DNA from: Gammaproteobacteria bacterium 50_400_T64
Lineage (GTDB): Bacteria; Pseudomonadota; Gammaproteobacteria; Pseudomonadales; Porticoccaceae
Assembly (NCBI GenBank): GCA_002162755.1
Contig: MAAS01000013.1
Span: 149,331-213,330, forward strand
Length of the DNA stretch: 64,000 nucleotides
Direction of reading: 5' to 3'
Below the pieces are notes generated by a model, which was given only the letters and a program-made list of their open reading frames with translations, searched no databases and was not told where the DNA came from. Within the stretch, counting starts at the first letter, position 1. The number at the start of each line of letters is the position of its first letter. A program made the position numbers and the translations under genes. This document shows positions 931 to 43,438 of the stretch, piece by piece.

Positions 931-1446
931 TTAAGCCTTGGCTCGAGCCTGCAGTTTGTCCTGTAAGGCCTGGTCTTTTTCGATAACGACCTGAGCATTC
1001 GCGGCGCGCTCGTCGAGCAGGCGTTGATGCAGCGCTGGATCGGCACCGGCGATAATCTGAGCGGCCAGATAAGCGGCATTTTTAGCGCCGGCCTTGCCGA
1101 TGGCAACGGTGGCAACGGGAATGCCGCCGGGCATTTGTACGGTTGAGAGTAATGCGTCGAGGCCTTCGAGAGAGCCGTTAATCGGCACGCCAATAACCGG
1201 TCTTAATGTCAGTGCCGCCACTGCACCGGCCAGATGTGCGGCCATACCTGCCGCACAGATAAAGGCGGCGCAACCGCGCTCATCGGCAGAGGTCACGTAG
1301 TCATGGGTGACGGCGGGGGTGCGGTGGGCCGAGGTGACCTTCGCTTCGAAAGGTATGCCAAGTTTATTGAGCACGTCAAAACTGGCTTCCATGATGGGAA
1401 GGTCGGAGTCGGAGCCCATTAGGATGGCGACGAAAGGTTTGCTCAT
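931..1446 (-). CDS. purE: N5-carboxyaminoimidazole ribonucleotide mutase
   Basis: [60 protein letters not shown] is the PurE signature; ATG at 1444-1446. Confidence 0.95.
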
Positions 1447-2704: not shown

Positions 2705-3733
2705 TTATGGTTGACGTACGATGTCTTTGATCTGGATGGGTAATTCAGCCGTGAGAACCAGGGCAAAGCTCATCTTTTCAAAGGTACGGAAAACCATTAG
2801 CAGGCCGGCTTTCTCTGGGGGTAGAGTGACGCTGCCGCCTTGTACGCGGTCTTTAACAACGACACCGGCCTTGAGGATAGATAGCATATTGCCAATTTCT
2901 ATACCGTCGCGCTCGCCGAGATTAATGCTGACTACGTCGAGCATACCGCCGGTACTCACTGCGCCTTCAACGGATAGGATCAAGCCTTCGGTGCCTTCAG
3001 GAGGGGCGCTGGGGTAGAACGTTGTATCAATCTTGCGTTCTTCATGTTCCAGGAGCCTGTCGTCGATACGCAGTTCTTCAAGACTACGGGTGGCGATGAG
3101 TGTAAGGATGTCGTCGTTAAGAGCCGTTACGCTTCCTGCGCCAATATCTTTCGCTCGAATACCAAGTGTTTCATTGGTGATTGGGTCGACGAAAGCGCCA
3201 CCGTTGCGATAAATGCCATAGGAGTTCTGAGTCTCGGAGAAGTCGCCTCGGGCATAAAAGCTATCACCTTTAGCCGTGAGTAAATGCTTGGTTTGGCCGG
3301 CAAGTATGTAAGGGGCACTCTCGAGCACACCGGGCTCAACAACGCGATTACGGGACAGGAAGCTATTGATCATATCCAGTGGCAGAGCGGGGATGGCCTG
3401 GCGGTCGGCGATTTCGCGGATTTTAGGGCTGAGTTTAACGTTGCGGCTGCGCGTGAGCGTTAGACGGGGTTTGCCATCAATGTAGATCAGGCTGATGATG
3501 TCGCCAGGGTAGATCAAATGAGGGTTTTGAATTTGTGGATTGACCTGCCATATTTCGGGCCACAACCAGGGTTGGGCGAGAAAGTGGGCAGAAATATCCC
3601 AGAGAGTATCGCCCTTCGTGACCGTGTGCTTGTCGGGGATATCGTCGTTAAACGGGGCTTCGGCCACGGCTGTTGTGACAAGGACACAGACACTCATTAA
3701 TGCCAGTGCTACTGTCTTTATAGGGCTCTTCAT
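2705..3733 (-). CDS. LysM peptidoglycan-binding domain protein, signal peptide
   Basis: Sec-like N-terminus and LysM segment HTVTKGDTLWDISAHFLAQPWLWPEIWQVNPQIQNPHLIYPGDIISL; located between dprA and def as in Pseudomonas-type gene order. Confidence 0.9.
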   Translation of the reverse strand: MKSPIKTVALALMSVCVLVTTAVAEAPFNDDIPDKHTVTKGDTLWDISAHFLAQPWLWPEIWQVNPQIQNPHLIYPGDIISLIYIDGKPRLTLTRSRNVKLSPKIREIADRQAIPALPLDMINSFLSRNRVVEPGVLESAPYILAGQTKHLLTAKGDSFYARGDFSETQNSYGIYRNGGAFVDPITNETLGIRAKDIGAGSVTALNDDILTLIATRSLEELRIDDRLLEHEERKIDTTFYPSAPPEGTEGLILSVEGAVSTGGMLDVVSINLGERDGIEIGNMLSILKAGVVVKDRVQGGSVTLPPEKAGLLMVFRTFEKMSFALVLTAELPIQIKDIVRQP

Positions 3734-39865: not shown

Positions 39866-40489
39866 ATGAGTACTCAATTGAGCTTTACCCAGGCGGCCTT
39901 TTTACAAAGTGCCCCGACCTTAAGAGAATGCCCCGAAGATACTGGTGCAGAAGTCGCTTTTGCGGGCCGTTCTAATGCTGGCAAGTCCAGCGCCATCAAT
40001 ACCCTGACTCGTCAGGGCAAGTTGGCGCGCACCAGTAAAACACCGGGCCGCACCCAGTTGATTAACCTGTTTTCACTAACAGAAGATAAACGGTTGGTGG
40101 ATTTACCCGGTTATGGTTTCGCGAAAGTGCCGAAGGCGATGAAAGCACGCTGGGATAAAAACCTGGCGGAATACCTGCAAGGCCGCCAGTCCCTGAAAGG
40201 GCTAATTTTATTGATGGATATCCGCCACCCCCTGCGGGACTACGACTGGCAGATGATTGCCTGGTCGGCAGATTGCGGCATGCCAGTGCATGTGCTGTTG
40301 ACCAAGGCCGATAAGCTGAAAAAAGGCCCGGCAAAGAGTACTTTGTTACAGGTGCGTAAGGTATTGGAAGAGGAAGGCCTGGATGAAATTGCTTCAGTGC
40401 AAATGTTTTCGGCCCTTAAGCGCAGTGGCATTGAAGAGTTAGAAGGCGTTTTACGTTCGTGGCTAGCTGAGCCATTGCTTGAGTCATAG
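39866..40489 (+). CDS. engB: Ribosome biogenesis GTPase EngB/YihA
   Basis: [50 protein letters not shown]. Confidence 0.95.
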
Positions 40490-40530
40490 TTATCTTTTGG
40501 CGCATTAGCTGGGGGATAAAAAAGCGGGCA

Positions 40531-40556
40531 AAAAAAACCGGCGCAGAGCGCCGGTT
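40531..40556 (-). terminator. Rho-independent terminator for minus-strand transcription (polA/sRNA)
   Basis: Minus strand: AACCGGCGC-TCT-GCGCCGGTT followed by a T tract. Confidence 0.88.
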
Positions 40557-40628
40557 GAAGTGTGCGGATGGAAATACCTAGAGGGGGAGGTTTCCATCCG
40601 TGATTAAAGCCTGGGGCTTATCACTTGC
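40531..40628 (-). ncRNA. Candidate Spot 42/ErsA-position sRNA with three hairpins and U-tract terminator
   Basis: Located in the polA-engB convergent gap. Minus-strand hairpins tile 40624-40600, 40600-40565 (10-bp perfect plus 2-bp stem, loop UCCCCCUCUA) and 40556-40536 followed by U8. GAACTT-N16-TCTTA lies upstream. Confidence 0.6.
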
Positions 40629-40634
40629 AAATAA

Positions 40635-40661
40635 TAAGACCGAGGTGTGGCGGTAAAGTTC
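40635..40661 (-). promoter_or_regulatory. SigmaE/AlgU-like promoter: GAACTT (40661-40656), 16-nt spacer, TCTTA (40639-40635)
   Basis: Close to the ECF sigmaE/AlgU consensus (GAACTT N16-17 TCtga); directs transcription into the candidate sRNA. Confidence 0.55.
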
Positions 40662-40684
40662 ACAAGTAAAAGAAATAATCCATT

Positions 40685-43438
40685 TTAATGTGCCTCATCC
40701 CAGTTTTGTCCACTGCCAATATCGACGATCAGAGGTATGTCCAGGGTGGCTGCTTCTTCCATGTGTTGTTTCAGCCCCGCAGTAATCTCCTTCAGTTCGC
40801 TATTCGGTACTTCCAGTACTAATTCGTCGTGTACCTGCATAATGATTTTGGCACCGGTGTTATCACCTTTTTCTTGTAGCCATTGATCGACGGCAATCAT
40901 CGCTTTTTTGATGATGTCGGCAGCTGTTCCCTGCATTGGGGCATTGATTGCTGTGCGCTCTGCCGCCTGGCGTTGCATACCGTTGCGGGCATTGATTTGT
41001 GGCAGGTAGAGGCGACGACCAAACAAGGTTTCGACATAACCCTTCTCGGCAGCGCTTGATTTGATGGTTTCCATATAGACTTTCACGCCGGGGTAACGCT
41101 CGAAATACAGATCGATGTATTCCTGGGCCTGATTGCGACCAATATTCAACTGTCGCCCAAGGCCGAAAGCTGACATGCCGTAGATCAAACCAAAGTTAAT
41201 AGCCTTAGCATTGCGCCGCTGATCACTGGTGACATCGTCGAGTTCAACGCCAAACACTTCGGCAGCCGTAGCCTGGTGCACATCGAGGCCGTGGGCGAAA
41301 GCATCCAGCAAGCCCTTGTCACCGGAGAGGTGAGCCATAATCCGCAGTTCAATTTGCGAGTAATCCGCTGCCAGTAGCGTGTAGCCTGCAGGGGCGATAA
41401 AGGCCTGACGAATGCGTCGGCCCTCTTCACTGCGCACGGGAATGTTTTGCAGGTTGGGGTCAGAGGATGAAAGCCGCCCCGTCGCGGTTACTGCCTGGTG
41501 ATAAGAGGTGTGAATGCGCCCGGTATCGGGGTCCATCATGGTTGGCAGTTTATCGGTGTAGGTCGACTTTAATTTACTGAGACTGCGGTGCTCGAGAATG
41601 ATCTTCGGCAGAGGGTAGTCGAGGGCAAGTTCAGCCAGTACGGCTTCCGCCGTTGACGGTGCGCCCTTGGGTGTTTTCTTGACCACCGGTAAGCCCAGTT
41701 CGGTAAAAAGAATTTCGCCCAACTGCTTTGGCGATGCCAGATTAAAGGCTTTACCTGCAGTTTCATGGGCCTGCAGTTCTAGCTCATCGATACGCTTACC
41801 CAGTTGTTGGCTTTGCTCGTTCAGCTTGTAGGCGTCGATGAGCGCCCCATTGCACTCGATACGAGAGAGCACGGGAACCAGAGGGATTTCAATGTCAGTG
41901 AGCACATTCGCCAAACTTTCTTCGTCGCTCAGCCGTGGCCATAAATTCTGATGCAGACGCAGGGTAATGTCAGCATCTTCGGCGGCATAGGGGCTGGCTT
42001 CTTCGATGGCGATTTGATTAAACGTGAGCTGGCCTTTGCCCTTGCCAGCGATATCCTCAAAGTGAATGGTGCTCTCGCCGAGATGCGTCAGGGCCAGGGT
42101 ATCCATATCGTGGCGCGAGCCGGTGGAATTGAGCACGTAGGATTCGAGCATGGTGTCAAAGGCGATGCCACGCAGGGTAATGTCGTAGCGGGCTAGCACG
42201 CTCATATCGTATTTCAGGTTTTGCCCGACCTTGGCGAGTTCGGGGTTTTCCAGTAGCGGTTTGAGTTGTGCCAGTACAGCGGCGCGGTCGAGCTGATCGG
42301 GTACGCCGAGATAGTCGTGGGCAAAGGGTAGATAAGCCGCTTCGTGGGGGCTAATGGCGAACGACACGCCGACTAGCTGAGCCTGCATATAATTCAGGCT
42401 GGTGGTCTCGGTATCGAAGGCGAAGAGTTCGGCTTGCTGCAAACGCTGTAGCCATTGGTCAAGATCGGCCTGGGTCAAAATGGTGCTGTAGTGAGTCTCT
42501 GCTTTGTTTTCCTGTACTGGGGCTGTGCCGCTGGCCTCGGCGTTTTGGCTATCGAGTAAATCCTCAACCCAGGTTTTAAATTCGGCTTCTTTAAACAAGG
42601 CGAGCAACTGATTCTGGTCTTCGGGGGTGTTGGCCAATTGATCGGCAGAAACGTCCAGTGGTACATCGAGCTTAATGGTCGCCAATAGCCGCGATAAATA
42701 ACCCTGCTCTTTATGCTCGGCGAGTTTTTCCGGCATTTTCTTGGCACCGCGAAACTCGAGACTGCGAACCTTTTCAAGATCGTTGTAAATCGCGTCCATA
42801 TCGCCCAGCCCCTGTAAAATGGCCAGCGCGGTTTTTTCACCGACGCCAGGAACACCGGGGATATTGTCGGCTTTATCGCCGACCAGGGCGAGATAATCGA
42901 TGATCAGCTCAGGTGGTACACCAAACTTTTCTTCGACACCTGCGGGGTCGAGCACCGTTGCCGTCATGGTGTTCACCAGGGTGATGTGCTCGTTCACCAG
43001 CTGGGCCATATCTTTGTCGCCGGTGGAAATAATTACCGGCAGGGCAAGCTCAGTCGCCTGTTGGGCGAGGGTGCCGATCACGTCGTCTGCTTCCACCCCC
43101 GGAATGATTAATAGCGGTAGGCCCATGGCGGCAACAATGTCGTGAATGGGCTGAATTTGCTCGCGCAATTCGTCGGGCATCGGTGGGCGGTGGGATTTGT
43201 ATTCTGCGTACAGTTCATCGCGAAAGGTTTTGCCCTTAGCGTCGAACACTACGGTGATGGGGCTGTCGGGGTAATCCTTCTGCAAGCGCCGTAGCATCGA
43301 AGTTACGCCTTTTACTGCGCCGGTCGATTGTCCCTTTGAATTGGTCAACGGCGGTAAGGCGTGAAAGGCGCGGTACAAATAGGATGAGCCGTCGACAAGG
43401 ACGAGAGGGGCTGAAGCGGGGGCGGTAGTAGTACTCAT
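40685..43438 (-). CDS. polA: DNA polymerase I
   Basis: Full-length 917 aa; exonuclease FDTETTSL, polymerase [61 protein letters not shown]. Confidence 0.98.

Follow-up and report, generated by a model that had tools for sequence, protein, structure and literature searches.

The window analysed here, a stretch of 64,000 nt from a Porticoccaceae genome, contains the convergent genes polA (DNA polymerase I) and engB (ribosome-biogenesis GTPase), which are separated by a gap of 195 bp; the minus strand of this gap carries a predicted small RNA (sRNA) unit that comprises promoter boxes, three hairpins and an intrinsic terminator (Table 1). The predicted start of the RNA, near 40628, was placed 7 nt downstream of the -10 box.

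Table 1. Features of the polA-engB region, in coordinates of the window
Feature	Positions	Strand	Remarks
engB, 207-aa ORF	39866..40489	plus	convergent gene
polA, 917-aa ORF	40685..43438	minus	upstream of the sRNA, same strand
-35 box GAACTTT, sigmaE/AlgU-type	40655..40661	minus	GAACTT at 40661-40656; invariant in 7/7 genus members
-10 box GTCTTA	40635..40640	minus	TCTTA at 40639-40635; 16 nt from GAACTT
Predicted sRNA, about 98-99 nt	40530..40628	minus	fold z -6.05; covariation; covariance model matches
HP1, 5' hairpin GTGAT-AAGCC...GGCTT-ATCAC	40600..40624	minus	compensatory changes at 2 pairs in the genus
HP2, carries the C-rich loop	40566..40599	minus	7/7 outer stem pairs covary over 8 genera
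HP2 loop CCCCCUCU, putative seed	40580..40587	minus	C-run nearly invariant in 21 sequences
HP3 and U8, intrinsic terminator, 9 pairs	40530..40556	minus	HP3 40556-40536; T8 40537-40530

The fold and the promoter of the predicted RNA

A preliminary description of this DNA had reported GAACTT-N16-TCTTA on the minus strand, followed by three hairpins and a U8 tail. All letters of the motif were found at their positions, and the hairpins and tail are present and were reproduced by the minimum free energy (MFE) fold, which consists of three hairpins at -41 kcal/mol and was equalled in stability by none of 200 shuffled sequences. The proposed layout of HP1 and HP2 stands as regards the hairpins, but C40600 had been counted in both stems at once; the MFE fold assigns it to HP1. 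In the RNA of the studied genome the HP2 loop has an unpaired probability of 0.99, and across relatives it is mostly unpaired in single-sequence folds, the C-run being partly paired in a few of them. Over positions 40400-40800 (401 bp), HP3 with its U8 tail was the sole terminator-like site detected, and no sigma70-type promoter was detected.

The motif GAACTTN15-17TCTNA occurs six times in the whole genome (3.05 Mb, both strands), and a reversed control pattern occurs 16 times; a density of six per 2 x 3.05 Mb puts the expectation for one strand of a single 200-bp gap at about 2 in 10,000. It was found in this gap in all seven genomes of the genus, and in the alignment of the seven both GAACTTT and CGGTCTTATT at the -10 position are invariant, while the spacer between them varies. 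Two of the six genomic sites are kept within the genus at promoter positions, namely the one in the sRNA gap and one upstream of rpoH, a classic sigmaE/AlgU target. In two species of the genus (G000 and G004; regions L307 and L310, position 1500), GAACTTT...ATCTAA stands about 40 bp upstream of the start codon of an rpoH-like gene, the RpoH (sigma 32) ORF having been recognised by eye from its sequence and not via a family search. RpoE itself is encoded (321 bits against a cut-off of 236), and the ORF that follows rpoE resembles, by eye, its anti-sigma factor; the region upstream of rpoE contains no perfect copy of the motif. The rarity and conservation of the motif, the presence of an RpoE gene and the same motif before rpoH together support, at the level of sequence, the earlier proposal that this promoter is of the sigmaE/AlgU type. 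With the looser pattern GAACTW-N15-17-TCNNA, 42 of the 57 polA-engB gaps taken from the family and the order carried a match on the polA strand and none on the opposite strand (0.57 in shuffled gaps), and this promoter type thus belongs to the locus well outside the genus.

Conservation and copies in Porticoccaceae

Searches with gap DNA recovered the sRNA unit, from the -35 box through the U tail, in the six remaining genomes of the genus; engB was recovered past the gap in relatives by tblastn, and the polA C-terminus shares 94% identity with that of the nearest relative. Several of the gap-DNA alignments begin at the -35 or the -10 box, with the polA tail aligning separately, and the stretch between polA and the -35 box shows little match among relatives. 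Seven further Porticoccaceae genera (g2, g3, g5, g7, g11, g12 and g14) have an RNA of this kind in the gap, and three g5 genomes and one g12 genome share the loop 14-mer CCTCCCCCTCTAGG without any change. An exact scan of public genomes with this 14-mer was unspecific, with about 1,900 chance matches estimated, and only the two Porticoccaceae matches located in a polA-engB gap were used from it.

In the alignment of the seven genus genomes, changes on both sides of a pair were seen in 8 of 25 pairs and 98.3% of cells were paired, against at most 39% for slid controls. The alignment of 21 sequences from eight genera gave both-sided changes in 12 of 17 pairs, with 48 such cells against 13 in shuffles, a count that is favoured by the derivation of the structure from the very sequences counted; no shuffle matched the covariation score, and structures slid by 1-3 columns paired at 47% or less. 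Over the eight genera, 95.9% of cells are paired in HP2 and 97.6% in HP3, four pairs of which covary. HP1 is kept within the genus only and is not conserved outside it. Covarying stems combined with a nearly fixed loop are the pattern of a selected RNA. The hairpins, the loop and the boxes, whose lack of conservation would, according to the preliminary description, have counted against an sRNA, are all kept in relatives, the stems by way of covariation. The same alignments bear on the idea that the locus encodes a small protein: a 30-aa ORF does exist on the minus strand (40597-40505), but it extends across the terminator, G003 and G005 have lost its ATG, in G006 the frame closes two codons after the ATG, and the changes are compensatory in the stems, so that we give this idea a negligible chance.

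A covariance model of the family found 27 copies, at 48-99 bits, in 24 Porticoccaceae genomes; 21 of these matches are training sequences and six are independent. Outside Porticoccaceae, no match of the model exceeded 37.4 bits in the order sample, and the weak matches were not counted as members.

Copies of the unit also lie outside the gap. In one g12 genome (G093) two copies lie downstream of polA, at distances of about 8 and 11 kb, and two others (G094 and G095) have copies on other contigs; where the sequence was read, in G093 and G094, the relocated copies lie beside a serA-like gene (recognised by eye) and retain promoter and loop. The same promoter and RNA thus stand away from polA in three genomes, which argues that the unit is not simply a polA 3' UTR. 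On that reading the hairpins serve only to stabilise the polA mRNA or to terminate it, and the promoter-like boxes arose by chance; it gains from the position of the hairpins downstream of polA on the same strand, where polA transcripts would stop at the same terminator. We regard it as very improbable, given that the promoter boxes are invariant despite a variable spacer, that conservation is lacking from polA to the -35 box, that the unit occurs away from polA in the g12 genomes, and that many relatives have two or three such gap units in tandem, with a promoter for each. We favour instead the reading of the unit as an independent sRNA gene in the polA-engB gap, with a product of about 98 nt and its own sigmaE-type promoter, and we put the probability of this whole explanation, including the mechanism proposed below, at roughly 0.7.

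The extra or relocated copies of the family lie at 575-720 and 3241-3390 of region L385, 858-1000 of L386 and 978-1093 (minus strand) of L384; among them, the g12 copies stand beside the serA-like gene and the second g2 copy has no recognised promoter.

Relation to known sRNAs, proposed action and wider occurrence

At gathering level, Rfam models gave no match over the whole window, and the models RF01719 (ErsA), RF02232 (sX13) and Spot 42 had no match in this gap at E values up to 10, or in relatives up to 0.5. As a positive control, the ErsA model found ErsA, at 134-136 bits, in the polA-engB gap of three genomes elsewhere in the order, with the same promoter type; the comparison of position with ErsA, made in the preliminary description, is therefore right. 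Its assignment of the RNA to the same positional class holds for position, promoter type and C-rich seed; membership of Spot 42 or ErsA, whose models found no match, is not supported.

The best Rfam match of the region was to suhB/mmgR (RF00519), at 28.2 bits and E 0.00059, below the gathering score of 41. Both RNAs have a CCUCCC-type motif ahead of a GC-rich terminator, but suhB/mmgR belongs to Alphaproteobacteria and to another locus, and the resemblance is probably convergent. Spot 42 (spf), from enterics and Vibrio, shares the polA-engB gap but shows no profile match; it is a CRP-repressed regulator of carbon metabolism, whereas the promoter here is of the sigmaE type. ErsA (Pseudomon-1) of Pseudomonas is alike in its gap, its strand, its GAACTT...TC promoter with an envelope-stress sigma factor, sigma22, on which it depends (PMC7565897), and its C-rich segments, which in ErsA include the terminator loop. 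It differs in the lack of profile similarity and in hairpin order, and ErsA itself needs Hfq for the repression of oprD (PMC7264166). sX13 of Xanthomonas likewise adjoins polA and has three stable hairpins and a C-rich apical loop, with UCCCCCU in one of its loops; C-rich motifs occur in all three sX13 loops, in contrast to the HP2 loop only here, there is no profile match, and sX13 acts without Hfq (PMC3771888).

A strict orthologue of ErsA or Spot 42 would account for the common gap, strand, sigmaE-type promoter and C-rich segments; we consider this very unlikely in view of the missing matches to RF01719, RF02232 and Spot 42, and the model of a second gap RNA (type 1, below) likewise reaches only about 10 bits on RNAs of the present family. 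Our best reading of the sequences is instead a new sRNA family, absent from Rfam, which lies at the genomic position of ErsA and appears confined to Porticoccaceae as sampled; in our judgement, and by analogy, it would work like ErsA and sX13 while being a member of neither. A literature search found no paper on sRNAs of Porticoccaceae, and the present family adds to this group a well-supported sRNA that Rfam does not hold.

In sX13, C-rich loops repress mRNAs that bear G-rich motifs near their start sites, and similar loops are reported in the same paper to act by pairing in HPnc5490 of H. pylori and RNAIII of S. aureus (PMC3771888). By analogy, the UCCCCCUC loop probably acts on G-rich ribosome-binding regions as sX13 does. 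We envisage that, under envelope stress, RpoE would transcribe the sRNA, whose C-rich loop would pair with G-rich Shine-Dalgarno or nearby mRNA sequences and so would lower translation of the target mRNAs, as in sX13 and similarly to ErsA. Hfq is encoded here (105 bits against a cut-off of 27), as in all 14 genomes tested, but sX13, which is nearest in mechanism, is independent of Hfq; the U8 tail is compatible with Hfq binding, and nothing more.

A screen of four genus genomes for GAGGGGG before start codons, with the matches in relatives read in part, gave no conserved target. With GAGGGGG 3-11 nt before ATG, accB and ubiE were the sole real-looking starts in the studied genome, and neither site recurred in the three relatives that were screened; no special complementarity to the loop was seen in the TonB receptors examined. 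The RNA may be real and yet have a main action other than antisense pairing at start sites, as a protein or RNA sponge. This would fit the absence of a target from these screens, and the lowering of hfq expression by sX13 (PMC3771888) indicates that such RNAs can act on regulators; we nevertheless think it unlikely, given the complementarity of the loop to Shine-Dalgarno-like sequence and the pairing by which similar loops act in sX13 and reportedly in HPnc5490 and RNAIII (PMC3771888). Pairing at ribosome-binding regions remains our preferred mode of action. Separately, weak duplex-energy candidates such as znuB and pilV emerged from a ranking of 79 start regions, which belonged to genes of the window and to TonB receptors; the candidates had no conservation check and were left unused.

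In 2013 the authors of the sX13 study asked whether other polA loci encode such RNAs (PMC3771888). A comparative answer can now be given: most convergent polA-engB gaps in the sampled order carry a sigmaE-type promoter. Of eleven additional convergent gaps, taken from other families of Gammaproteobacteria, six have the promoter on the polA strand and one has it on the opposite strand. C-rich-loop RNAs with this promoter also occur in unrelated gammaproteobacterial polA-engB gaps, some of them matched by the ErsA, sX13 or anti-hemB models.

The model of anti-hemB (RF02837), an RNA known from Burkholderia, gave 43-48 bits (threshold 49.5; E 1.9e-8 to 5.7e-7) on the gaps L428, L429, L438 and L447. 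In other families of the order (gaps L254, L227, L250, L243 and L247), sub-threshold matches were obtained to sX13, at 34, 28 and 27 bits, and to ErsA, at 41 and 28 bits. In L438 the unit is placed as if inverted: both its promoter and its C-rich-loop RNA are on the strand that does not carry polA.

The anti-hemB matches suggest that this RNA forms one family with those of the polA-engB gaps, and such matches of the anti-hemB, ErsA and sX13 models, near or below threshold, suggest a superfamily. We speculate, at somewhat less than even odds, that a single old superfamily of sRNAs, diverging fast, driven by sigmaE and bearing a C-rich loop, occupies the site next to engB throughout Gammaproteobacteria and perhaps also in Betaproteobacteria; ErsA, sX13, anti-hemB and both Porticoccaceae types would be branches of it that have been named separately, and the promoter and the C-rich loop would be its constant parts. 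If a C-rich-loop stress RNA has indeed kept its address while its body changed, then the locus would be a good one for studying sRNA evolution.

The type 1 RNA mentioned above is an sRNA-like unit (CAAGCAACATTGCTGCTTTCTCCCCAAACTAGATGCAAAGCTTG...CCCCAAGCAACAGCAAAGC, terminator) that is not in Rfam and is present in many Porticoccaceae between polA and engB (gap regions L160, L161, L164-L168, L171, L172, L175, L207, L208, L210 and L224), in one to three tandem copies, mostly with GAACTT...CTAA for each. It resembles the sRNA studied here in its gap, its GAACTT...CTAA promoter and its UCUCCCC motifs, but has its own sequence and fold, the models of the two types (R1 and R2) cross-matching no higher than about 20 bits. 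The gaps L211 and L212 contain several near-identical repeats of the type 1 3' part and terminator (AGCCCCAACCG...GGTCTGGGGC...TTTTTTTT), as if the 3' end of type 1 were being amplified.
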